Shown here in pieces: positions 16,986 through 30,903 of a stretch of 64,000 nucleotides of DNA. Source of the DNA: Paraphotobacterium marinum. GTDB lineage: Bacteria > Pseudomonadota > Gammaproteobacteria > Enterobacterales > Vibrionaceae. The DNA is taken from assembly GCF_002216855.1 (NCBI RefSeq), contig NZ_CP022356.1, positions 186,001-250,000 on the forward strand. Reading direction: 5' to 3'. The notes beneath the pieces were generated by a model. It did not search any database. It had not been told where the DNA came from and worked only from the letters and a program-made list of their open reading frames with translations. The first letter of the stretch is position 1; each line of letters starts with the position of its first letter. The translations under genes were made by a program, and so were the position numbers.

Positions 16986-17638
16986 ATGCAAAAAAAAGGG
17001 TTATTTCTAATTAATAGTTTTATTGTATGCGGTCTATTAATTTCGACAGTTACTAAAAGTGAACAATGTAATTTATATGCAAAAAAAAAAATAAGGAGTA
17101 TATTTCATCAATTGCTTTGTGCGAACAATTCCAAAAAAACTCTCAGATATTGGGTAAAGATAGAATTATAAATGCATACTTTTATAATAATAAGCATTCT
17201 CTATTGAAAAAAAGTGCAACTATAATTAAACCCTCTTTAATTAATAAACAAAACATATTAAATCAAGCAATAACACAATGTGGCAGTGTTAGTCTTCCAC
17301 AAGATACCGCTCAAATTATTATAAAAACTTGGTCAACTAATCTTGGTAATGATTATCAGAGGGCTATTATTGACACTAAAACCAATTTTAATGGATTTAC
17401 TGATTTTACTATTGAAAAAAAGTACAGGGCAAGTTTCATGAAAAATGGGGCTTTTATTGGACGTAATCCATCTGCTGCTCATACATCATTCCATTTTAAT
17501 CAATTTGTTGATCCAACAATACCATATGGAGTTATTGGTGGCGCAATAACTTTGGTAAGTATTTCTGATAAATATAGCTCGGGTTTAAAAACATCACAGA
17601 GTAATATAAAAAAACACTTAGAGCTAAAAATTAATTAG
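16986..17638 (+). pseudogene. Secreted protein of unknown family, frameshifted at A11
   Basis: The ATG at 16986 begins a signal peptide (MQKKGLFLINSFIVCGLLIS) and the frame reaches QCNLYAKKK, but stops at 17171. Adding one A to the A11 run at 17081-17091 moves into the frame that reads NKEYISSIALCEQFQKNSQILGKD and continues to 17638, giving about 217 residues. The C-terminal part contains NPSAAHTSFHFNQFVDPTIPYGVIGGAITLVSIS, which I do not recognise. Because the run is 11 A's long, slippage could restore the frame in some cells. The outer-membrane barrel gene follows on the same strand. Confidence 0.65.
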
Positions 17639-17701
17639 TCCTTCCCAGAATTATATCAAATAAAGAAATTTTTATGTTTGATTCCGCTCATAACAAAAAC
17701 T

Positions 17702-17722
17702 AGGGTTAATTGGAATCAACCC
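17702..17722 (+). terminator. Weak terminator-like hairpin
   Basis: GGGTTAATT pairs with AATCAACCC with one mismatch around a two-base loop, followed by an AT-rich stretch. It lies 64 bases after the frameshifted secreted-protein gene. Confidence 0.35.
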
Positions 17723-17828
17723 TTATAAAACATTGATTATTATCAACTTTATAATACTATTTCAAAGGCAAATTTTAAGATTTGCCCTACTTAAATAGAA
17801 TAAATTTAATTAATCATAAGGAATTAAA

Positions 17829-18500
17829 ATGAATAGTAAAAAAATCCTATTAGCGTCTCTAATATTAATGTCGTGTGCCTCAGCGAATGCTTTGCCACAA
17901 TCAGGACCTTATTTGGGGGTAACTGCTGGTTATGGATTTTCAAACAGTAAATCTGATGGCTCTTCTGATTATCAACAAGATAAGAATAAAATAGATAATT
18001 CAGGTGGATTTGCTTCGGGAATATTTGCTGGATACAACATTCAGGTTGTTGATGGTTTTTATATTGCTCCAGAAGTTCAGTATTTAAATATAAATTCAAA
18101 AACCTCTTATTCTTACAAAAGCTACGGTGTAAAAAATTCCTTATCATATGGAAGCACCAACGCGGTGATTTTTGATGCAAAATTACAGATGTATGTTACA
18201 GATAACTTTTCAATTTATGGAAAATTCGGTGCAGCATTGACACGAAGCTCTTATCAGACAACCCAGAAGGACGATTATAATTGGAATGAAAATCATAACT
18301 ATAATGAAAGCAAAACCAACTTTTATTATGCCTTAGGGGCTTCATATTCATTAACGGACCAATGGGCTTTAAATCTTGAGTATGATCATATCAATGGAAT
18401 CAAAAAACCTCTTACAGAAGAAGACCAAAATAGAGCAGTTCATGGCGGCGCCACTTTAGAGTCCCAAGCTGTATTATTAGGTTTACAGTATACTTTTTAA
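17829..18500 (+). CDS. Outer-membrane beta-barrel protein (OmpA/opacity-like)
   Basis: The 223-residue protein has a signal peptide ending near ANA (residues 18-20). The mature part starts GPYLGVTAGYGFSNSK and shows alternating amphipathic strands separated by polar loops, ending LLGLQYTF with the C-terminal Phe recognised by the BAM complex. This fits an 8-stranded barrel of the OmpA N-terminal/Opa-like type without a peptidoglycan-binding domain. Loop segments rich in Asn, Asp, Tyr and Lys (for example DDYNWNENHNYNESK) would be surface exposed. AAGGA lies upstream of the ATG and a strong terminator follows, so it is its own transcript. Confidence 0.85.
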   Translation: MNSKKILLASLILMSCASANALPQSGPYLGVTAGYGFSNSKSDGSSDYQQDKNKIDNSGGFASGIFAGYNIQVVDGFYIAPEVQYLNINSKTSYSYKSYGVKNSLSYGSTNAVIFDAKLQMYVTDNFSIYGKFGAALTRSSYQTTQKDDYNWNENHNYNESKTNFYYALGASYSLTDQWALNLEYDHINGIKKPLTEEDQNRAVHGGATLESQAVLLGLQYTF

Positions 18501-18513
18501 CGTAAAATCATCT

Positions 18514-18544
18514 GGGGATTAACTTTGTTAGTCCCGCTTTTTTT
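18514..18544 (+). terminator. Rho-independent terminator of the barrel gene
   Basis: GGGATTAAC (18515-18523) pairs with GTTAGTCCC (18527-18535, one G-T pair) around TTT, followed by GC and seven T's. Confidence 0.85.
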
Positions 18545-18729
18545 GTATTAAAGAATAACTATAAATTTGCATTTTTGTAACTTAGAGTAAAACAACATGT
18601 TTTGCAAAAATATTTAAGTTTTTAGATTACGATTAGTTTTAGATGAATTGAATGCATTTAAAAATAACTAAAACATGAAATTCAATTCCAAAATTACCTT
18701 TTACTTTTTCAAATATTGGTCATAAGATA

Positions 18730-21700
18730 ATGTTTAAATTAAAAACAATAATTATTTTGTTGTATATTTCCCTCCTAACAGCATGTGGTGGAAGTGACGG
18801 TGGATCTGACAATACTCCCCCTAAACCATCACCTCAAAAGGTGCATTTTACAATTAAATCTAAAATTGATACGCCACCTAATATTAGAGTTGGAAAGTCT
18901 GTGCATTATTCACTTGATGTTAAAAAAAACGTTGAAAATAATTTTTTAAATTTAGAGAAATATTCTAATAAAAGCGTCAATAATTCATCAATAGCTATAA
19001 CCAATATAAAATTGTTTGATTCAAATAACCCCACAAACATTTATAATTTGAAAAATTATATTAGTCCCGAGAATGGTGACGAGGATAATGAGTGTGTTCA
19101 ACTGGATGGTCAAGATTTGAAGTTTACACAAATTGCAGATGGATGTAGCTTAGATTTAAATATCCCATCTACAGATCGTCACTCTCAATCGATAAAATCC
19201 ATTGAAATAAGTTTTAGTAATAATACGACATTGATATATAAACTTAACTCATTTAATTCTAGATATCACTTTCACAGCTCACTAGGATTTATTAAAATTA
19301 ATGGAATAAACCCTAGATTTAATAACATAGATATTTTGAGTACGAGTCAAGATGTTAAAAATGTATTATTAAAAAATTTAAGTAAAGTTTCATTATATAA
19401 TTTAAGCATAGATCAAATAGATACTTTTAATAATAAACAAATCTTACCACATTTTAGTTATAAAATTCCCAAAATTACCTCTAATCAAGAATTAAAACTT
19501 CATCTAAAAGAGGGTGATTATAAGGTTGATGCTGACAATTTAAATGAACCTATTTTCATTCACGTATTACCTAAACAAACATTAAGACAAAAAAACAACC
19601 AACACATATATTCAGGCTTAAAAAGAAATATTAAATTAGCGCAAACCAGTTACCCTGAAATCGTCATTGATTCAACAAAGCTTGATAAAAATGGAAGTCA
19701 ACTTACATTAACCATCAAAAATATTGGTGCAGGGCCATGGAATCAGCCGAAAGGAAAAATAAATTTTAAGGAATTTAAAAGTGCTGGGTGGGGATTAGAT
19801 TCAGATAGTTGTATGGATTTACAAACTCTAGCACCAGAGCAGAAATGTAGCATAACTTTTAACCATGATGCAAGTAAAAAACTGGAAAGTCAACTCATTC
19901 ATTTACCCGTTAATTATAATAATGAAAAAGAACCTGGTTTTATGTTAAGTGCTTATGTTGGTTATATAAAAAATCTTGTTACATCAGTAACCAAAGTGAA
20001 TGATAATCAATTTAAAATAACAGTGGCAAAAAATACGAAACCAAATAATGGCGACTTTCAATGTCTTCCTGAGGGGAATAATACTTTCAATTGCACTAAT
20101 AAATCAAAAGATACCTTGACACCCACAATATCAGTCAATGATGAAAAGTTGCAATTTTATGCACATGTAAACAAGTACTTTTCCATAGGTCACAATATTT
20201 ACCAGCTCAGCTCTGGAAAGCAATTTTTAACTTCAAAGTTAATCTATCACGCTGATAGTGATATTGTCAAAAGAACTTTAATCTTGGATCAATATGATTC
20301 TCTTTACTTTGTGACAAAATCGAGCCCAAATATCGTCCAATATGTAAATCCTCAAAAAAATATCACTTATTCAATTAAGGCAAAAAATGGCGGTTATTAT
20401 AAGGAAGCTTTGTTTGATAACCAAAATAAAATTTTGATCTTTAGGACGCAAGATGGGGTTATAGAGCTCTATAAAGTTAAAAAAGATCAAGTCAATCTTG
20501 ATTCTATTGGTGAAATTAAAGTCCCTGTTGGATATAAATTTGTTGGGATGAGTTTAAATAATGATACATTACTCATGACGTATCATTATTTAGATGACTA
20601 TGCTCATTCTTATTATGAAAAACTTTTTTTGAACGATCCTAACACTTTCTATAAGTCAGTTGAGCCGAAATCTATAAATGCATATGTAGTTTCACCGTTA
20701 ATCATAAATTTAAAAACACAAATTATTGGAATTACTTATAATCAAGGCCAAAACGCGAACATTATTCAATTTAATGAAGATAAAAAAACCATTGATACCG
20801 TTAAAATTCCAAAAGCAGAAGTTTCAGATACAAGCTTTTTACATGGTATATCTAATCCCACTAAAAATGGCTCTATTTTATTTATAAATAACACATTAAC
20901 GCCGGAACTTAAAAAATTTACGATAATGAAGTTTGATACTAACAATAATCAATTCAATAATTTGTCGTCTGATTCTAGTTATCCATATTTGATGAATATA
21001 GATATTCTAAAAAAATTAATTTATTTCGTAAGTATTCCAGAAGATTCTAAAACCCAATTTAGTAAACCTAAAATATTTTTAAATAGAGCAGAATTCACCA
21101 ATAATTCAGAATTGGTTAATGACTTTTCTGTATACACATTTCAAAATTATCCAAGCAATTTAACGTTTCATAAAACATTAGACTTTATGTTTCAAGGAAC
21201 GTGGTGTAATGTCATATTACCAGATTTAATTACTGCCAAAGTAAAGGATTCTATTAAAATTATTCCCAAAGTAATATGCCCACATTCAAATTACACTACC
21301 AAGGATTTTACATTTAAATGGCTAGATGCTGGCACAGGCGCTCACACTGAAGCAAATTTGGACTACATCGTTCCATCTTATGACCCAGCTGATAATCCAC
21401 ATCAATTGATTCTTCAAGTGACACCTATAAATCGTGCTAATATTAAACCTTTACAAATGACATTTAGTACCTTTATTAAGGTAGAGGCACCTGAAAACAA
21501 AACAACTTTATTTGTGTCACCAACGACAACAACAATATCTTCAGATTCAGAGCCCAAGGATTCTGTGGTTTTTACAGTTCGTTCCAATGTTCCAATTGAT
21601 AAGGATAACTTAATTTTCACACCTCTTGATTCTAATTTTAAAGATTTTGGGATTACAGCAATCAGTGATAAAGATCAGTTCGATAACATTTATGTGACAG

Positions 21701-24700
21701 TCCATATTCCAAATGATAAGAAGGCATCATACCAAGGTAACTTTAGTTTAAGAGGAATTCCAAATAGCAAAACCACTGTTACTGTTAATAGAATTTCAGA
21801 AAATACAAAATTAAGTGTTGGTTACCCTGAGAAAAGTATCACCAAGGATATTAATCAAGTGACCTTTCATCTTTCTTCTAATATCCCGATATCATCTGAT
21901 AATCTTGACTTTAAATCAGCTGATGGTTTGGAGGTCGTGACATATAAAAATGAGGGTCAGAATAACGTCTTTGCTACCGTAAAAGCACCAAACGGTATTA
22001 AAACATACACGGGTTCATTTAGCGTGAAAGCTCATTCTCAGACTTCGCAAGCCGTTAAAGTGACTCGTCTTGATGCATCATCGAGTCTAGAGGTGATTCA
22101 TCCAAATAGAACTATTGGTAAAGAAGAGGGTGATGGAACGGGTGTAACGGAAGTTCAGTTTCAAGTAACGTCAAATGTTCCCGTATCTGCAAACATTGAT
22201 TTCCAACCGGAGAATGGCTTAACCTTTGTTCGTTGGACAAATTCCTCGAGTGATTCGACTAAGGGTACGTATACAGCGACGGCTATTGTATCGGTTCCAC
22301 CTGGCACTACAGCTCCAAATCAACCGTACACGGGTTCATTTAGCGTGAAAGCGCATTCTCAGACTTCGCAAGCCGTTCAAGTGACTCGTCTTGATGAAAC
22401 ATCGAGTCTAAAGGTGATTAATCCATCTAGAACTATTGGTCAAGCAGAGGGTGATGGAACGCAAGTTCAGTTTCAAGTAACGTCAAATGTTCCCGTACCT
22501 GCAAACATTGATTTCAAACCGGAGAATGGCTTAACCTTTGTTAGTTGGATAAAGGCCTCGAGTGATAAGGGTACGTATACAGCGACGGCTATTGTATCGG
22601 TTCCAGCTACCGCTACAGATAAACCGTACACGGGTTCATTTAGCGTGAAAGCGCATCCTCAGACTTCGAGAGCCGTTCAAGTGACTCGTCTTGATGTACC
22701 AGCGACTCTAGAGGTGAGTCAGCCAAATAGAACTATTGGTCAAGCAGAGGGTGATGGAACGCAAGTTCAGTTTCAAGTAACGTCAAATGTTCCCGTACCT
22801 GCAAACATTGATTTCAAACCGGAGAATGGCTTAACCTTTGTTCGTTGGATAAAGGCCTCGAGTGATAAGGGTACGTATACAGCGACGGCTATTGTATCGG
22901 TTCCAGCTACCGCTACAGATAAACCGTACACGGGTTCATTTATCGTGAAAGCGCATCCTCAGACTTCGAGAGCCGTTCAAGTGACTCGTCTTGATGTACC
23001 AGTGACTCTAGAGGTGAGTCAGCCAAATAGAACTATTGGTCAAGCAGAGGGTGATGGAACGCAAGTTCAGTTTCAAGTAACGTCAAATGTTCCCGTACCT
23101 GCAAACATTGATTTCAAACCGGAGAATGGCTTAACCTTTGTTAGTTGGATAAAGGCCTCGAGTGATAAGGGTACGTATACAGCGACGGCTATTGTATCGG
23201 TTCCAGCTACCGCTACAGATAAACCGTACACGGGTTCATTTATCGTGAAAGCGCATCCTCAGACTTCGAGAGCCGTTCAAGTGACTCGTCTTGATGTACC
23301 AGCGACTCTAGAGGTGAGTCAGCCAAATAGAACTATTGGTCAAGCAGAGGGTGATGGAACGCAAGTTCAGTTTCAAGTAACGTCAAATGTTCCCGTATCT
23401 GCAAACATTGATTTCCAACCGGAGAATGGCTTAACCTTTGTTCGTTGGATAAAGGCCTCGAGTGATAAGGGTACGTATACAGCGACGGCTATTGTATCGG
23501 TTCCAGCTACCGCTACAGATAAACCGTACACGGGTTCATTTATCGTGAAAGCGCATCCTCAGACTTCGAGAGCCGTTCAAGTGACTCGTCTTGATGTACC
23601 AGCGACTCTTGAGGTGAGTCAGCCAAATAGAACTATTGGTCAAGCAGAGGGTGATGGAACGCAAGTTCAGTTTCAAGTAACGTCAAATGTTCCCGTATCT
23701 GCAAACATTGATTTCCAACCGGAGAATGGCTTAACCTTTGTTCGTTGGATAAAGGCCTCGAGTGATAAGGGTACGTATACAGCGACGGCTATTGTATCGG
23801 TTCCAGCTACCGCTACAGATAAACCGTACACGGGTTCATTTATCGTGAAAGCGCATCCTCAGACTTCGAGAGCCGTTCAAGTGACTCGTCTTGATGTACC
23901 AGCGACTCTAGAGGTGAGTCAGCCAAATAGAACTATTGGTCAAGCAGAGGGTGATGGAACGCAAGTTCAGTTTCAAGTAACGTCAAATGTTCCCGTACCT
24001 GCAAACATTGATTTCAAACCGGAGAATGGCTTAACCTTTGTTCGTTGGATAAAGGCCTCGAGTGATAAGGGTACGTATACAGCGACGGCTATTGTATCGG
24101 TTCCAGCTACCGCTACAGATAAACCGTACACGGGTTCATTTATCGTGAAAGCGCATCCTCAGACTTCGAGAGCCGTTCAAGTGACTCGTCTTGATGCATC
24201 ATCGAGTCTAGAGGTGATTCATCCAAATAGAACTATTGGTAAAGAAGAGGGTGATGGAACGGGTGTAACGGAAGTTCAGTTTCAAGTAACGTCAAATGTT
24301 CCCGTATCTGCAAACATTGATTTCCAACCGGAGAATGGCTTAACCTTTGTTCGTTGGACAAATTCCTCGAGTGATTCGACTAAGGGTACGTATACAGCGA
24401 CGGCTATTGTATCGGTTCCACCTGGCACTACAGCTCCAAATCAACCGTACACGGGTTCATTTAGCGTGAAAGCGCATTCTCAGACTTCGCAAGCCGTTCA
24501 AGTGACTCGTCTTGATGAAACATCGAGTCTAAAGGTGATTAATCCATCTAGAACTATTGGTCAAGCAGAGGGTGATGGAACGCAAGTTCAGTTTCAAGTA
24601 ACGTCAAATGTTCCCGTACCTGCAAACATTGATTTCAAACCGGAGAATGGCTTAACCTTTGTTAGTTGGATAAAGGCCTCGAGTGATAAGGGTACGTATA

Positions 24701-27700
24701 CAGCGACGGCTATTGTATCGGTTCCAGCTACCGCTACAGATAAACCGTACACGGGTTCATTTAGCGTGAAAGCGCATCCTCAGACTTCGAGAGCCGTTCA
24801 AGTGACTCGTCTTGATGTACCAGCGACTCTAGAGGTGAGTCAGCCAAATAGAACTATTGGTCAAGCAGAGGGTGATGGAACGCAAGTTCAGTTTCAAGTA
24901 ACGTCAAATGTTCCCGTACCTGCAAACATTGATTTCAAACCGGAGAATGGCTTAACCTTTGTTCGTTGGATAAAGGCCTCGAGTGATAAGGGTACGTATA
25001 CAGCGACGGCTATTGTATCGGTTCCAGCTACCGCTACAGATAAACCGTACACGGGTTCATTTATCGTGAAAGCGCATCCTCAGACTTCGAGAGCCGTTCA
25101 AGTGACTCGTCTTGATGTACCAGTGACTCTAGAGGTGAGTCAGCCAAATAGAACTATTGGTCAAGCAGAGGGTGATGGAACGCAAGTTCAGTTTCAAGTA
25201 ACGTCAAATGTTCCCGTACCTGCAAACATTGATTTCAAACCGGAGAATGGCTTAACCTTTGTTAGTTGGATAAAGGCCTCGAGTGATAAGGGTACGTATA
25301 CAGCGACGGCTATTGTATCGGTTCCAGCTACCGCTACAGATAAACCGTACACGGGTTCATTTATCGTGAAAGCGCATCCTCAGACTTCGAGAGCCGTTCA
25401 AGTGACTCGTCTTGATGTACCAGCGACTCTAGAGGTGAGTCAGCCAAATAGAACTATTGGTCAAGCAGAGGGTGATGGAACGCAAGTTCAGTTTCAAGTA
25501 ACGTCAAATGTTCCCGTATCTGCAAACATTGATTTCCAACCGGAGAATGGCTTAACCTTTGTTCGTTGGATAAAGGCCTCGAGTGATAAGGGTACGTATA
25601 CAGCGACGGCTATTGTATCGGTTCCAGCTACCGCTACAGATAAACCGTACACGGGTTCATTTATCGTGAAAGCGCATCCTCAGACTTCGAGAGCCGTTCA
25701 AGTGACTCGTCTTGATGTACCAGCGACTCTTGAGGTGAGTCAGCCAAATAGAACTATTGGTCAAGCAGAGGGTGATGGAACGCAAGTTCAGTTTCAAGTA
25801 ACGTCAAATGTTCCCGTATCTGCAAACATTGATTTCCAACCGGAGAATGGCTTAACCTTTGTTCGTTGGATAAAGGCCTCGAGTGATAAGGGTACGTATA
25901 CAGCGACGGCTATTGTATCGGTTCCAGCTACCGCTACAGATAAACCGTACACGGGTTCATTTATCGTGAAAGCGCATCCTCAGACTTCGAGAGCCGTTCA
26001 AGTGACTCGTCTTGATGTACCAGCGACTCTAGAGGTGAGTCAGCCAAATAGAACTATTGGTCAAGCAGAGGGTGATGGAACGCAAGTTCAGTTTCAAGTA
26101 ACGTCAAATGTTCCCGTACCTGCAAACATTGATTTCAAACCGGAGAATGGCTTAACCTTTGTTCGTTGGATAAAGGCCTCGAGTGATAAGGGTACGTATA
26201 CAGCGACGGCTATTGTATCGGTTCCAGCTACCGCTACAGATAAACCGTACACGGGTTCATTTATCGTGAAAGCGCATCCTCAGACTTCGAGAGCCGTTCA
26301 AGTGACTCGTCTTGATGTACCAGCGACTCTAGAGGTGAGTCAGCCAAATAGAACTATTGGTCAAGCAGAGGGTGATGGAACGCAAGTTCAGTTTCAAGTA
26401 ACGTCAAATGTTCCCGTACCTGCAAACATTGATTTCAAACCGGAGAATGGCTTAACCTTTGTTCGTTGGATAAAGGCCTCGAGTGATAAGGGTACGTATA
26501 CAGCGACGGCTATTGTATCGGTTCCAGCTACCGCTACAGATAAACCGTACACGGGTTCATTTATCGTGAAAGCGCATCCTCAGACTTCGAGAGCCGTTCA
26601 AGTGACTCGTCTTGATGTACCAGCGACTCTAGAGGTGAGTCAGCCAAATAGAACTATTGGTCAAGCAGAGGGTGATGGAACGCAAGTTCAGTTTCAAGTA
26701 ACGTCAAATGTTCCCGTATCTGCAAACATTGATTTCCAACCGGAGAATGGCTTAACCTTTGTTCGTTGGACAAATTCCTCGAGTGATTCGACTAAGGGTA
26801 CGTATACAGCGACGGCTATTGTATCGGTTCCACCTGGCACTACAGCTCCAAATCAACCGTACACGGGTTCATTTAGCGTGAAAGCGCATTCTCAGACTTC
26901 GCAAGCCGTTCAAGTGACTCGTCTTGATGATATAAATTTGTCAGTTGATAAAGAATATGATTCGTGGAGAAATATTCAAGGTTTAGTTAAGGCTAGCGAG
27001 TCACCTACTAATATTCTTAAAAGCACCTACAAATCGCAAGATTTATTTACAGTTGTAAGTACACAAGCTATCAAGAATTGGGTTTGGACATTCGTACCTG
27101 ATAAGGATACAACTGAGTGGGCTAGGAAGTTTTCTGATAATATAAAAGTGTTCAACGACGACACTTCAACAAATTTCACAATTCGCTATGTGGAGAACAC
27201 ATCTATAACTCCACCTCGAGCAGGAGCCTTTATAGAAGGACACTTAGTGGCTAAACAAGGTGATGCTGTCCAATATACTAGCAATCTTAAACTGAATATT
27301 TCTTTTGAAGGAGGCGCTATTACTATCTGGACTCCAAAAGAATTGGGTTGGCCAATAATAGTAGAACCGAATGATGCACATTTTGCAAATGGTTTGTTTA
27401 TTGATAGATATAATCAAACTACTATCAATGAGACGAAAGATCCTTTGCATCTAATACCACCGACATCTGATAACCTAAAAGATAAGAATATTTTTCACTT
27501 AAGGCCTTTTAAAGATAAAACAGGAGAATTTAATTATCTAATGAGAGTAACAGGGGATAAATGTCTTTATACTGAGAGAAATAATATATATGATTGGGAT
27601 TGTAGTAAACACCCAGATCCTAATGCTGGTTATGATCCAAATGTAGATTTTCTTGCTTTTCAAATTTTTCGGGAACCATCTCCAGATTCGCCATTTACAA

Positions 27701-28908
27701 ATATTGGAGCATGGCGACCACAACATTTGGACGGACAAGTAACGTATGGGTGGTACTTTGTAAATAAGCGCAATTATTCTGATACTGATGTTGATAAAAT
27801 TAGTTTTTTGAAGTTACCTAGAGAAGGCAAAAATTCATTTCACCAGGATATTAGATATGCACAATCCAAAAGAATTTCACTTGAAATGTCAGAGGATATT
27901 AATAGGTCGACATCGCCCACCTCAATACAAAAACAATTAATGGATTTACCATTATTTTATGTCGTGGATTCTGAAACTGAAAATTATTTATCTTCAGTCA
28001 CTTTGAATTCTACGCGAATTACACCGTTTGCAACTAATTATAAGAAGGATGATGGGCTTCGTGATGCTAATTTTTATGATCAGAATAAAAACTTAAAATA
28101 TCCAACACTAGATAATAATATGTACGATTTACGTAATACTGGTGTATATTATGGTTATTACATCCCAGCAATAGTAGCTGAGGATGATGATTCCGACAAT
28201 TTTCTTAAAGATATTTTCAAGAGACCAAGTAATATTAATCTCGTAATATTCAACAGACCATATTCTGTAAGGTTTGATATTAGCCTTAGAAACCGGAAAA
28301 TGACTACGCCTGATGATTGGAAGCAAGACGAGGATATGTTGTATGTGAAGACCCCAGCGGATGGTGAGGGCCAGCGTATCTGGGACAACGACAAGAATAG
28401 GGAAATAGGTATAAATACGGTTATTGATAATCCTTTTGAATCGGCGCCAGAATGTACAAGGTATTACTGGGGTCAAGGGAACCGAGACAGAAATTATAAC
28501 AGTCAATGTTATAAAGTATTGATGACGTATCACTTAACAACAAAAGATACATATGACTCAAGAACTCCTTTTAACGGAAGTATACACTTTGGATTTTGGC
28601 CTAGTATATATCTGTCGCAGACTTATTATGAAGATGTGCAACAGGTAAAATTTATGGCCACACCGCCAATGGCTTACGAATTTGATGCAAGCAAATTAGC
28701 CACAGATAACTACGCTTGTACGACAACCTTTACAGCTCCATTTTGTGTTGATAGTAATTGGAATCCGCTAAAAAAAGAGTTTGGTACGACGCAAAGGTTG
28801 ACCTACCTTGAGCCAAACCCTATAACTGGTAGGCCTTTTGGAGCACAACAACTTTATGATATTACCTCTACAATTTCTATTGTAGATGAAGGTAAGAAAA
28901 ATTATTAG
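18730..28908 (+). CDS. Giant repeat lipoprotein (3392 aa), putative surface adhesin
   Basis: The product starts with a lipoprotein signal peptide whose lipobox is LTAC (Cys at residue 19), followed by a Gly/Ser/Asp/Pro linker. Residues ~30-920 are non-repetitive and beta-rich; the part around 480-830 looks like a propeller-type repeat domain (segments such as LILDQYDSLYFVTK and GISNPTKNGSILFI). Residues ~920-2734 hold eighteen Ig-like beta-sandwich units of about 100 residues. Two are divergent and sixteen nearly identical, each with VQFQVTSNVPV, NIDF.PENGLTFV and YTGSF.VKAH.QTS.AVQVTRLD. Residues 2735-3392 are a unique, Trp/Tyr/Asp-rich C-terminal domain with paired Cys. It was probably exported and lipidated, acting as a long stalk that displays a domain. 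Transport and ligand are unknown, and no secretion partner is adjacent. The start lacks a strong ribosome site. Confidence 0.85.
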   Translation: MFKLKTIIILLYISLLTACGGSDGGSDNTPPKPSPQKVHFTIKSKIDTPPNIRVGKSVHYSLDVKKNVENNFLNLEKYSNKSVNNSSIAITNIKLFDSNNPTNIYNLKNYISPENGDEDNECVQLDGQDLKFTQIADGCSLDLNIPSTDRHSQSIKSIEISFSNNTTLIYKLNSFNSRYHFHSSLGFIKINGINPRFNNIDILSTSQDVKNVLLKNLSKVSLYNLSIDQIDTFNNKQILPHFSYKIPKITSNQELKLHLKEGDYKVDADNLNEPIFIHVLPKQTLRQKNNQHIYSGLKRNIKLAQTSYPEIVIDSTKLDKNGSQLTLTIKNIGAGPWNQPKGKINFKEFKSAGWGLDSDSCMDLQTLAPEQKCSITFNHDASKKLESQLIHLPVNYNNEKEPGFMLSAYVGYIKNLVTSVTKVNDNQFKITVAKNTKPNNGDFQCLPEGNNTFNCTNKSKDTLTPTISVNDEKLQFYAHVNKYFSIGHNIYQLSSGKQFLTSKLIYHADSDIVKRTLILDQYDSLYFVTKSSPNIVQYVNPQKNITYSIKAKNGGYYKEALFDNQNKILIFRTQDGVIELYKVKKDQVNLDSIGEIKVPVGYKFVGMSLNNDTLLMTYHYLDDYAHSYYEKLFLNDPNTFYKSVEPKSINAYVVSPLIINLKTQIIGITYNQGQNANIIQFNEDKKTIDTVKIPKAEVSDTSFLHGISNPTKNGSILFINNTLTPELKKFTIMKFDTNNNQFNNLSSDSSYPYLMNIDILKKLIYFVSIPEDSKTQFSKPKIFLNRAEFTNNSELVNDFSVYTFQNYPSNLTFHKTLDFMFQGTWCNVILPDLITAKVKDSIKIIPKVICPHSNYTTKDFTFKWLDAGTGAHTEANLDYIVPSYDPADNPHQLILQVTPINRANIKPLQMTFSTFIKVEAPENKTTLFVSPTTTTISSDSEPKDSVVFTVRSNVPIDKDNLIFTPLDSNFKDFGITAISDKDQFDNIYVTVHIPNDKKASYQGNFSLRGIPNSKTTVTVNRISENTKLSVGYPEKSITKDINQVTFHLSSNIPISSDNLDFKSADGLEVVTYKNEGQNNVFATVKAPNGIKTYTGSFSVKAHSQTSQAVKVTRLDASSSLEVIHPNRTIGKEEGDGTGVTEVQFQVTSNVPVSANIDFQPENGLTFVRWTNSSSDSTKGTYTATAIVSVPPGTTAPNQPYTGSFSVKAHSQTSQAVQVTRLDETSSLKVINPSRTIGQAEGDGTQVQFQVTSNVPVPANIDFKPENGLTFVSWIKASSDKGTYTATAIVSVPATATDKPYTGSFSVKAHPQTSRAVQVTRLDVPATLEVSQPNRTIGQAEGDGTQVQFQVTSNVPVPANIDFKPENGLTFVRWIKASSDKGTYTATAIVSVPATATDKPYTGSFIVKAHPQTSRAVQVTRLDVPVTLEVSQPNRTIGQAEGDGTQVQFQVTSNVPVPANIDFKPENGLTFVSWIKASSDKGTYTATAIVSVPATATDKPYTGSFIVKAHPQTSRAVQVTRLDVPATLEVSQPNRTIGQAEGDGTQVQFQVTSNVPVSANIDFQPENGLTFVRWIKASSDKGTYTATAIVSVPATATDKPYTGSFIVKAHPQTSRAVQVTRLDVPATLEVSQPNRTIGQAEGDGTQVQFQVTSNVPVSANIDFQPENGLTFVRWIKASSDKGTYTATAIVSVPATATDKPYTGSFIVKAHPQTSRAVQVTRLDVPATLEVSQPNRTIGQAEGDGTQVQFQVTSNVPVPANIDFKPENGLTFVRWIKASSDKGTYTATAIVSVPATATDKPYTGSFIVKAHPQTSRAVQVTRLDASSSLEVIHPNRTIGKEEGDGTGVTEVQFQVTSNVPVSANIDFQPENGLTFVRWTNSSSDSTKGTYTATAIVSVPPGTTAPNQPYTGSFSVKAHSQTSQAVQVTRLDETSSLKVINPSRTIGQAEGDGTQVQFQVTSNVPVPANIDFKPENGLTFVSWIKASSDKGTYTATAIVSVPATATDKPYTGSFSVKAHPQTSRAVQVTRLDVPATLEVSQPNRTIGQAEGDGTQVQFQVTSNVPVPANIDFKPENGLTFVRWIKASSDKGTYTATAIVSVPATATDKPYTGSFIVKAHPQTSRAVQVTRLDVPVTLEVSQPNRTIGQAEGDGTQVQFQVTSNVPVPANIDFKPENGLTFVSWIKASSDKGTYTATAIVSVPATATDKPYTGSFIVKAHPQTSRAVQVTRLDVPATLEVSQPNRTIGQAEGDGTQVQFQVTSNVPVSANIDFQPENGLTFVRWIKASSDKGTYTATAIVSVPATATDKPYTGSFIVKAHPQTSRAVQVTRLDVPATLEVSQPNRTIGQAEGDGTQVQFQVTSNVPVSANIDFQPENGLTFVRWIKASSDKGTYTATAIVSVPATATDKPYTGSFIVKAHPQTSRAVQVTRLDVPATLEVSQPNRTIGQAEGDGTQVQFQVTSNVPVPANIDFKPENGLTFVRWIKASSDKGTYTATAIVSVPATATDKPYTGSFIVKAHPQTSRAVQVTRLDVPATLEVSQPNRTIGQAEGDGTQVQFQVTSNVPVPANIDFKPENGLTFVRWIKASSDKGTYTATAIVSVPATATDKPYTGSFIVKAHPQTSRAVQVTRLDVPATLEVSQPNRTIGQAEGDGTQVQFQVTSNVPVSANIDFQPENGLTFVRWTNSSSDSTKGTYTATAIVSVPPGTTAPNQPYTGSFSVKAHSQTSQAVQVTRLDDINLSVDKEYDSWRNIQGLVKASESPTNILKSTYKSQDLFTVVSTQAIKNWVWTFVPDKDTTEWARKFSDNIKVFNDDTSTNFTIRYVENTSITPPRAGAFIEGHLVAKQGDAVQYTSNLKLNISFEGGAITIWTPKELGWPIIVEPNDAHFANGLFIDRYNQTTINETKDPLHLIPPTSDNLKDKNIFHLRPFKDKTGEFNYLMRVTGDKCLYTERNNIYDWDCSKHPDPNAGYDPNVDFLAFQIFREPSPDSPFTNIGAWRPQHLDGQVTYGWYFVNKRNYSDTDVDKISFLKLPREGKNSFHQDIRYAQSKRISLEMSEDINRSTSPTSIQKQLMDLPLFYVVDSETENYLSSVTLNSTRITPFATNYKKDDGLRDANFYDQNKNLKYPTLDNNMYDLRNTGVYYGYYIPAIVAEDDDSDNFLKDIFKRPSNINLVIFNRPYSVRFDISLRNRKMTTPDDWKQDEDMLYVKTPADGEGQRIWDNDKNREIGINTVIDNPFESAPECTRYYWGQGNRDRNYNSQCYKVLMTYHLTTKDTYDSRTPFNGSIHFGFWPSIYLSQTYYEDVQQVKFMATPPMAYEFDASKLATDNYACTTTFTAPFCVDSNWNPLKKEFGTTQRLTYLEPNPITGRPFGAQQLYDITSTISIVDEGKKNY
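22071..26312 (+). repeat. 2121-bp block of seven units present twice in tandem
   Basis: The block 22071-24191 (one 321-bp and six 300-bp units) recurs at 24192-26312 with the same order of unit variants. A silent A-to-T change at 23610 in the sixth unit reappears at 25731, exactly 2121 bases on. This shows that seven units were duplicated together, more recently than the individual units arose. Confidence 0.85.
22071..26932 (+). repeat. Sixteen near-identical tandem 300/321-bp repeats
   Basis: Inside the giant lipoprotein gene, units of 300 bp (type with WIKASSDKG and PATATDKPYTG) and 321 bp (type with WTNSSSDSTKG and PPGTTAPNQPYTG) follow each other in frame. Units differ by a handful of switches: PVPAN/PVSAN, DFKP/DFQP, VRW/VSW, SFSV/SFIV, and LDVP/LDET/LDAS at the junction. 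GC content counted on two sample lines is 43-47%, against about 30% around it. The last unit begins as one type and ends as the other, a sign of recombination. Copy number could be misassembled. Confidence 0.9.
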
Positions 28909-29466
28909 GTGATTACTGAAAGATTCTGTTGAGATATCAAATAAAAATACTGTTCATATTATCTATCTAATATAATTTAGATTTTATTAGATAGATGTTT
29001 TTTAATATTATTAATCATTATGAACTAATCATGGAAACTCAACCTATATTGAATTAATAAAAATATAATGAATTACAAAACCATAAAACAAGAATTAATA
29101 TAAGATAAAATTACATTTAATTTGGAATAAAACTTCATCATGAGTGGAATATTTTATTTTAAATAATTAATAACTATTTTTTCTTCACAAAGTTGCGTTT
29201 TAAATAATGCTAAGATTTTTTGGATTTTATTCAGTTTATTTAAAAAAAATTTGAAGATAGATATCATAATAATATAAATTCTTTCAGTTAAAATAGTTTT
29301 TTATGATAGCTAATTGACTTAAAGACAGAAGCTTCTGATAGAACTTATCAGAAACAAGTTTTGAATTGATTTAAACGACTGCTAATAAAAATTGAGTTAA
29401 TCGCAAAAAATATTTTAAATATATCTATTTTTATTATTTTTACTATATAAAACAAGGAATAAAATT
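28909..29466. other. Intergenic region after the giant gene
   Basis: Apart from the hairpin at 28961-29004 I see no gene. The sequence is AT-rich with stops in all frames. The promoter of the small gene at 29467 should lie at its right end; no convincing -35/-10 pair stood out. Confidence 0.5.
28961..29004 (+). terminator. Terminator of the giant lipoprotein gene
   Basis: ATCTATCTAAT (28961-28971) pairs perfectly with ATTAGATAGAT (28986-28996) around a 14-base loop and is followed by GTTTTTTAAT. Confidence 0.7.
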
Positions 29467-29784
29467 ATGACCGATCTCATGACACTGGAACATTTTGGTA
29501 TTTCAATACCATTTGAAGGGCAAGTCTTAAATAATAGAGCATCAGTTTTTATAGAAAACAACGATTTTGAATCACTTAGATCTTTTTTGTTTGCTTGTAA
29601 AAATACCTCAGATATTATGAAGAACAATCAATCTTATATAAAACTATCACACTTCATAAACGATATAGAGTCTTTTTTAATGATAATTGAAAGCAAGGTA
29701 TTGTTAGAAAATAAAATTAAATACTATGAGTATTATAAAGAGTCTGAAAGGGAATACTCAGTCCTTAATTCAGTAGTTTTATAG
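29467..29784 (+). CDS. Small hypothetical protein (105 aa)
   Basis: I recognise no family. The product is soluble and mostly helical, with a leading segment MTLEHFGISIPFEGQ and a C-terminal helix rich in Glu, Tyr and Lys (KIKYYEYYKESEREY). AAGGA lies upstream of the ATG. It stands alone between two long intergenic regions. The ribosome site and length argue for a real gene; function cannot be inferred. Confidence 0.55.
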   Translation: MTDLMTLEHFGISIPFEGQVLNNRASVFIENNDFESLRSFLFACKNTSDIMKNNQSYIKLSHFINDIESFLMIIESKVLLENKIKYYEYYKESEREYSVLNSVVL

Positions 29785-29991
29785 TTTTACAAAATATCCC
29801 AACCAACTTTCACGCTAAGGTAATGATTAAATATGATACTAATTGAATAATGAGGTTAAAAAATATAAATGACTTATTAATTTAATGCAAGTTAATTATA
29901 TTTATTTGCTCATTACTTAAATAGTTATAAAAGTAAACCATTACCTTTAGCCATATTTTTTTATTTTAGATTATCGAAAATTAAGGATAGT

Positions 29992-30903
29992 ATGTATATG
30001 GTCAAAAAAATTCATTTGTTTATAGGTGCATTAATTACAGTAATGTGGGGTGCAAATTTTTCAATAATAGAGATGGGGTTAAGAGATTTAAATTCCTTTT
30101 CACTTACCTTACTAAGATTTTTGTTTACAGCTATCCCTTTAATTTTTTTTATACCTAGACCTAAAGAGGTATCTATATTTTGGATTGCTTTGTATGGTGT
30201 GATTTTTGGTACTGGGTTATGGTGGCTTGTTAATTTTGCAATGTATAAGGGACTATCTCCTGGTTTATCGTCATTAATTCTTCAGTTCAGTGCGTTTTTC
30301 ACGATTATTATGAGTAATTTTTTTTTTAAAGAAAGAATTTCATTACAAAATTGGATTGGGATGGGTGTATCCTTTGTAGGTTTGATGATGATTATTCACT
30401 TTTCTAATCTAAGCTCTACAAAAATAGGTATTGAATTAACCATTTTAGCTGCTGTTTCATGGGCTGTTTGTAATTTGATTATCAAAAAAACACAACCCCA
30501 AAATGTAATAGGTTTTATAGTCTGGTCTAGCCTTTTTGCTGTTCCTGCGTTGTTAACGGTGTCTATTATTGTAAATGGTGGTGAAGAATTATATCAGATA
30601 CCCAAGAATTTAACTTTTAATGCTTGTATATCAGTACTTTTCCAATCATTCATCACAACAATTTTGGGTTATTCAATATGGAATAAACTTATGAAAACTT
30701 ATCCTGCATCAGATGTGGCTCCTCTCTCATTATTAGTGCCAATTTCAGGAATACTAACATCATATGTTTTCTTTGACGAAACTTTAAGTAATTGTCAATT
30801 TATATCCATGGGTATTGTAATAATTGGCCTATTTATTTTTATGCTCTCAGGTAAAACTTTTGTAGGATTATTTTTTTCAAAAATAAAACCCTGTAACAAA
30901 TAA
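29992..30903 (+). CDS. eamA: EamA-type drug/metabolite transporter
   Basis: The 303-residue inner-membrane protein has ten hydrophobic segments forming two EamA repeats (about residues 5-135 and 150-290). Many stretches resemble E. coli EamA, the O-acetylserine/cysteine exporter: VMWGANFSIIEMGL, GLSSLILQFSAFFTII, AAVSWAVCNLIIKK, and the C-terminal SDVAPLSLLVPISGI. That suggests export of a cysteine-pathway metabolite, but DMT substrates are hard to predict. An AAGGA site precedes the ATG at 29992; Met3 is a possible alternative start. It is monocistronic as far as the window shows. Confidence 0.8.
   Translation: MYMVKKIHLFIGALITVMWGANFSIIEMGLRDLNSFSLTLLRFLFTAIPLIFFIPRPKEVSIFWIALYGVIFGTGLWWLVNFAMYKGLSPGLSSLILQFSAFFTIIMSNFFFKERISLQNWIGMGVSFVGLMMIIHFSNLSSTKIGIELTILAAVSWAVCNLIIKKTQPQNVIGFIVWSSLFAVPALLTVSIIVNGGEELYQIPKNLTFNACISVLFQSFITTILGYSIWNKLMKTYPASDVAPLSLLVPISGILTSYVFFDETLSNCQFISMGIVIIGLFIFMLSGKTFVGLFFSKIKPCNK

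Follow-up and report, generated by a model that had tools for sequence, protein, structure and literature searches.

The window analyzed here, a stretch of 64,000 nucleotides from Chr II of the marine bacterium Paraphotobacterium marinum NSCS20N07D (C2:186001-250000), contains a giant gene on the forward strand at positions 18730-28908. In the window sequence, it forms a single intact frame that starts with ATG, has no internal stop, and encodes 3392 amino acids, with a computed mature mass of 372 kDa. The P. marinum genome totals 2,593,992 bp in three contigs, of which C2 (Chr II) accounts for 1,161,949 bp. It was the smallest complete Vibrionaceae genome as reported in 2017, and the published assembly was made from PacBio reads with HGAP, the longest read being 40,999 bases (PMC5649133, available sections). 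In its main text, the genome paper (PMC5649133) does not use the words adhesin, repeat, lipoprotein, giant, or RTX. The features of the locus, in window coordinates, are as follows:

18515..18535, forward strand: hairpin resembling an intrinsic terminator, located between the giant gene and the barrel gene that precedes it (two such sites found in a 1.2-kb region, 0.4 expected)
18730..18786, forward strand: predicted signal peptide with lipobox, Cys19 being the lipid-modified residue (from the sequence)
18784..18807, forward strand: CGGSDGGS (P1'-P8'), Gly/Ser/Asp-rich and resembling the sorting motif of T2SS lipoproteins (from the sequence and the published motif)
18787..21495, forward strand: orphan N-region, residues 20-922 (about 900 aa), with no credible relative
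21496..22071, forward strand: a pair of diverged stalk units covering residues 923-1022 and 1023-1114 (from unit comparison)
22058..24196, forward strand: first of two exact 2139-bp copies of a block of seven units, set 2121 bp apart (from DNA identity)
22072..26925, forward strand: array of 16 Ig-like stalk units, near-identical to one another and covering residues 1115-2732 (from repeat finding, identity, and a structural model)
24179..26317, forward strand: copy 2 of the exact 2139-bp duplication (from DNA identity)
26926..28905, forward strand: orphan C-terminal region, residues 2733-3392 (660 aa), the presumed head, with no credible relative

The gene directly upstream (17829-18500) encodes an OmpA/AcfA-like small β-barrel. 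The terminator-like hairpin between the two genes suggests that they are probably separate transcription units; this argues against an operon, and as no support for a pairing was found, the barrel was set aside as a partner of the giant protein. Because acfA and acfD are neighbors in V. cholerae, we also considered a metalloprotease lipoprotein of the AcfD/SslE kind, an idea that was dropped when no protease family was matched. Further upstream, TTG is the sole start available to the ORF at 17117-17638, which, as judged by eye, comes after a signal-peptide-like reading in another frame, with a long run of A in between; the interval 16987-17638 is possibly another split gene, in addition to the gspD described below, or an assembly indel.

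The giant gene is dominated by its repeats. Tandem Repeats Finder reports an array at 21999-26929 with a period of 300, 16.3 copies, 95% matches, and a score of 8669, against scores of 52-71 for the other five arrays in the window. Setting the unit boundaries at VTRL divides residues 923-2732 into 18 tandem units, and the unit alignment agrees with an earlier note on this DNA, which had described 16 near-identical and two divergent units of about 100 residues. Unit 0 has 100 residues, unit 1 has 92, and units 2-17 have 100, 104, or 107; units 0 and 1 are 29% and 49% identical, respectively, to unit 2. Among the thirteen units of 100 residues, DNA identity is 95.0-100% (mean 98.3%). Unit 2, with 107 residues, shares 78-81% protein identity with units 3-6 and 91% with unit 17. 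When each exact DNA type is given a letter, the order of units spells ABCDEFGHECDEFGHEEI, in which the seven-unit string CDEFGHE occurs twice; at the DNA level, 22058-24196 and 24179-26317 are exact copies of 2139 bp that lie 2121 bp apart. Unit 17 is a hybrid, with its first 157 bp equal to unit 6 and its last 242 bp equal to unit 2. The thirteen 100-residue units vary at 13 codons, 12 of these changes altering the amino acid and one being silent. The divergent units differ from unit 2 at far more codons, with 63 non-synonymous and 15 synonymous differences for unit 0, and 46 and 17 for unit 1. Given the exact seven-unit copy and the 95-100% DNA identity of the thirteen units, the length of the stalk appears to have changed recently, and the duplication supports the suggestion in the earlier note that this length is set by repeat number. 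Taken together, the unit types, the block copy, the hybrid unit 17, and the codon differences point to an array in which units have lately been amplified and have exchanged sequence, the starting point being the older and more diverged units at its N-terminal edge.

The array also differs in composition from the rest of the gene. Its GC content is 46.2% (34.5% at third positions), compared with 29.3% (22.6%) in the N-region and 35.4% (27.1%) in the C-region. After correction for amino acid content, using the codon usage of 34 other genes in the window, third-position GC was still high in the five near-identical units tested (z 3.1-3.7) and likewise in the C-region (z 3.3). The GC content of the array makes an outside origin of the stalk unit possible. 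Threonine accounts for 13.0% of the array and cysteine is absent from it; an excess of threonine also marked the fibrillar adhesins in a published training set (PMC9210967, as far as its available text goes).

AlphaFold2 was run on residues 2429-3392, using an alignment built from five further stretches of the array, each three units long. Units 15-17 were modeled as separate all-β domains with eight strands each, at ten-residue pLDDT means of 60-87, and thus the repeated folded domains that the earlier note had proposed checking by structure prediction were predicted for these units. A Foldseek search with the model of the three units and the C-region returned a ciliary protein in its top row. 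The rows shown also include 6xi1 (tandem extender units of an Aeromonas RTX adhesin) and 8beg (Ig-like domains of PrgB), which together with the eight strands per unit bear out the earlier description of Ig-like β units, as well as S-layer proteins, cadherins, the glycan-binding protein SGBP-B (6e57), and other multi-domain Ig-like chains. The TM-scores of the rows shown are low (at most 0.15 by query length), because two thirds of the query was unmodeled and the chains are multi-domain. A second structure comparison (VIA) gave Z scores of at most 8.7, mostly to antibody chains and in the generic range, and only supports a generic Ig-like arrangement. Comparison of eight units with Pfam produced weak matches to BACON (best E 0.0052, in two of the eight), He_PIG (E 0.029) and Big_13 (E 0.075) in one unit each, and the unrelated GTP1_OBG (E 0.011), which appeared in as many units as BACON. 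No named Pfam family matched the unit over its curated cut-off, in line with the earlier note, which had recognized none, and the match of SIRP Ig domains to the unit profile (best E 0.023) was set aside as weak. The model therefore supports an Ig-like β-sandwich for the stalk unit, with no closer family backed. The flanking regions gave unusable models: ten-residue pLDDT means in the C-region were about 19-48, mostly in the twenties, and the N-region with unit 0 (residues 20-1022), predicted by AlphaFold from one sequence, had a mean pLDDT of 33.7.

Both flanking regions had been called unique in the earlier note, and our searches found no credible relative of either. The C-region is indeed rich in aromatic residues, with 2.1% Trp and 5.9% Tyr versus 0.4% and 4.7% in the N-region; it ends at residue 3392 as had been proposed, while its start is placed here at residue 2733 instead of 2735. 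Among 61 relatives, a set in which this genome is the sole representative of the genus Paraphotobacterium, the C-region occurs only in its own genome, and the N-region searched together with the first two units matched two genomes, the second match covering the signal-peptide part only. For the family, the class, and the phylum, the genomes searched were a sample of those in each group. In the family sample of 296 genomes, the C-region matched two (its own and one chance match), the N-region alone matched one, and the unit alignment matched two, the second being weak and generic. In the class sample of 369 genomes, the C-region was confined to its own genome and the N-region alone matched two, the second judged a chance match; across the phylum, the unit alignment matched one of 239 genomes. 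Pattern-led scans of genome contigs with the C-region and the unit alignment, and of viral contigs with the C-region, gave no match. No relatives were found on plasmids, or in phages with the C-region as query, and Rfam had no match in 17600-30100. Neither the N-region nor the C-region matched a Pfam family over its cut-off, whether catalytic, carbohydrate-binding, or adhesive.

Several candidate relatives were rejected in these searches, the protein names given here being our readings of the loci. Inspection of the loci showed that a PpiD-like match to the C-region (G132, E 0.0053) and a Rieske/reductase-like match to the N-region (G366, E 6.4e-5) were chance or generic. A match in G005 to the N-region query (E 2.5e-4) was confined to the signal-peptide part, and an MshQ-like frame in G095 (E 4.7e-4) was a weak Ig-like match; both were set aside. 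The same was done with matches to GTP1_OBG, SSRP1 PH, DUF3276, Frey, and rimK, which were weak or under cut-off, and with a weak likeness of the C-region to phototropin (E 0.0043 over 58 residues).

At the N terminus, the signal peptide carries the lipobox MFKLKTIIILLYISLLTAC (LLTAC) with its cysteine at residue 19, as the earlier note had read it. Lipoproteins exported by the T2SS have a stretch rich in Gly/Ser or Asn/Asp at P2'-P8' after the lipobox (PMC12802150), and the CGGSDGGS of the giant protein fits this motif. All seven residues after the cysteine are G, S, D, or N, against three of seven in each of two other lipoprotein-like starts in the window, which make a very small control under a crude rule. 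A T2SS cluster is present on Chr I (1,426,504 bp); this stretch has 23 ORFs of 80 aa or more, and among the 8 that were scanned, GspC, GspE, GspF, GspG, and GspL exceeded their Pfam cut-offs and a match to GspN was weak (21.3 bits against a cut-off of 29.6). The gspD gene is split into two overlapping frames (L037:7070-9042; G000:C1:683069-685041), each over Pfam cut-offs and neither reaching the cut-off of TIGR02517. The T2SS could therefore be dead, unless the split is an assembly indel error; given that the break lies near a run of A and that the assembly is PacBio-only, such an error and a real loss are both possible. We also considered a Slam partner for the giant protein. PF04575 (SlipAM/Slam) has two matches over cut-off in the genome, of 46.9 and 40.1 bits and far from the giant gene, but the same two proteins fit DUF2860 barrels far better (184.8 and 195.4 bits), and the idea was dropped. 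That these DUF2860 barrels (L038:7691-8686 and L039:7739-8764) pass the PF04575 cut-off implies that a PF04575 match alone need not mean Slam.

The tag after the lipobox recurs elsewhere on the same chromosome. The degenerate pattern L-[ST]-[AG]-C-G-G-x has 10 matches genome-wide, every one of them on Chr II, which makes up 45% of the genome; the reversed control has none. One place is the giant gene's own (window 18775-18794). Seven of the other nine (loci L050-L056) are open frames that are 266-874 aa long and begin like signal peptides, TTG being the start codon of one; the remaining two are a spurious 34-aa frame and a place without an in-frame start. Six of the seven frames were compared with Pfam and none had a match over cut-off. 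The CGG-tagged proteins resemble the giant protein in the lipobox and linker only. A 314-aa lipoprotein at L050 had appeared to be a relative (26% over 222 residues with composition correction off), which was not upheld: with the default correction only the lipobox and linker (residues 17-48) aligned at E <0.02, and phmmer found no match. Two of the tagged frames (874 and 838 aa) are related to each other, at 26% over 514 residues, and L051 contains an additional lipoprotein-like frame of 367 aa with CGSGSSGS. Judging from these shared starts, the giant protein may be one member of a set of surface-tagged orphan lipoproteins.

We favor, with moderate confidence, the view that the giant protein is a lipid-anchored, periscope-type surface stalk with an InvL-like topology, presenting a C-terminal head that probably binds. 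The lipobox suggests that the protein would be exported by Sec, cleaved by signal peptidase II, and acylated at Cys19. By analogy with InvL and PulA, the Gly/Ser/Asp stretch would then lead to delivery by the T2SS and GspN to the external surface of the outer membrane. The N-region would lie near the membrane and the 18 Ig-like units would form a rod of very roughly 65 to 80 nm, at about 3.5 to 4.5 nm per 100-residue unit. We infer both the surface exposure of the protein and the role of the C-region as a presented, functional head, which would sit at the distal end and most likely bind a particle, a glycan, or another cell; as the head has no detected relative and the protein no adhesive domain of a known kind, "binding" is a guess. 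Recombination between the near-identical units, among which a duplication is observed, could alter unit number and hence the reach of the head. A point against this view is that the T2SS exports folded substrates, and a folded rod longer than the width of the periplasm would therefore have to pass end-first. A fuller version of this proposal describes a Gram-negative lipid-anchored periscope of 372 kDa, its rod several times the width of the periplasm, that is exported by the T2SS through its Gly/Ser/Asp tag, is the largest of the CGG-tagged orphan set of Chr II, and is threaded end-first through the secretin; we advance this combination only tentatively and regard it as doubtful.

A similar layout could serve feeding in place of attachment, if the giant protein were a surface-tethered enzyme or nutrient binder whose stalk is a spacer holding out a hydrolase or a glycan-binding head. 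BACON, weakly matched by two of the eight units, is a spacer domain of glycan-binding lipoproteins, and SGBP-B (6e57) is among the proteins listed by Foldseek. Many of the listed T2SS lipoproteins are, moreover, enzymes (PMC12802150 Table 1). However, no catalytic or carbohydrate-binding family emerged over cut-off in the N- or C-region, and the near-identical repeats with their fresh block copy would suggest that length itself has been selected for, something that is not required of a simple spacer; we judge this explanation to be a serious but unlikely one.

Outer-membrane lipoproteins can also face the periplasm, and the giant protein might be a structural or stress-related tether running along or across that compartment. 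The split gspD could mean that there is no T2SS export, and the outward orientation of the protein is itself deduced. Eighteen folded units would, however, exceed the width of the periplasm several-fold, the sorting motif resembles that of surface lipoproteins (PMC12802150), and arrays of near-identical repeats that vary in length are characteristic of surface proteins (PMC8201768, in its available part), which together make a periplasmic tether improbable. We consider it highly improbable that the array arose by neutral or recent amplification and has a length without function, or that its copy number is a product of assembly. The exact 2139-bp duplication, the difference in GC (46%) and third-position GC between the array and the rest of the gene, and the PacBio/HGAP assembly, in which the split gspD may mean some indel errors, could each be read in this way, but the frame remains open through 18 units and both unique ends, and, with reads as long as 40,999 bases, an array of 5.4 kb could be covered in one piece.

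If the proposal of a lipid-anchored surface stalk is correct, the giant protein would be a candidate attachment or feeding device for the small-genome P. marinum, and would make testable the question of how a secretion system for folded proteins copes with a lipid-anchored rod that the periplasm is too short to hold. In Vibrionaceae and Aeromonas, giant RTX adhesins are secreted by the type I route and form very long rods with repeated Ig-like extender domains. The giant protein would resemble them in its very long rod of repeated Ig-like units, with 6xi1 among the top Foldseek rows, but has a lipobox in place of an N-terminal retention module, and the whole protein gave no Pfam match to RTX calcium-binding repeats at E values up to 10. 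It shares with fibrillar adhesins, as described in the available sections of PMC9210967, its great length (3392 aa), its 18 repeat units, and an anchor, here a lipobox that would face outward; the listed feature for which no match over a Pfam cut-off emerged in the N- or C-region is a known adhesive domain.

Two published designs come closer. Periscope Proteins, including SasG, Rib, Sgo_0707, and others, use highly identical folded repeats to build variable-length stalks, and are recognized by tandem repeats of more than 50 residues with at least 80% identity (PMC8201768 and its methods, available parts). By pairwise identity, the thirteen 100-residue units, at 95-100% in DNA, lie within this range and unit 2 is borderline. 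As in those proteins, an anchor and a unique terminal region flank a long tandem array of domains, here predicted to fold, with near-identical DNA and signs of recombination-driven length change. The three characterized examples come from Gram-positive bacteria and carry their ligand domain at the N terminus and a wall anchor at the C terminus (PMC8201768, available parts), whereas the giant protein has a predicted N-terminal lipid anchor, a presumed C-terminal head, and a unit without a Pfam family over cut-off. InvL of Acinetobacter baumannii is 492 aa long; it has a lectin-like head and three Ig-like domains, the latter predicted, and needs the T2SS (PMC9245377, in the text available). In architecture, the giant protein matches it with a predicted N-terminal lipid anchor, a Gly-rich motif after the cysteine, Ig-like domains, and a presumed C-terminal head; unlike InvL, the giant protein has 3392 aa, 18 tandem units, an extra N-region of about 900 aa, and no recognizable lectin. 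In the available literature on Vibrionaceae lipoprotein stalks, we found nothing closer than PMC8201768, PMC9245377, PMC9210967, and PMC12802150. The suggestion in the earlier note of an undescribed system was thus overstated, since Periscope stalks (PMC8201768) and a T2SS-exported, lipid-anchored Ig stalk in InvL (PMC9245377) have been published, at least as their available text presents them. Judged by sequence comparison, the general design of a variable stalk on a lipid anchor is known, while the parts are seen in no other genome examined; the giant protein would join the variable-length periscope stalk with the T2SS-delivered surface lipoprotein, and would do so from orphan parts.
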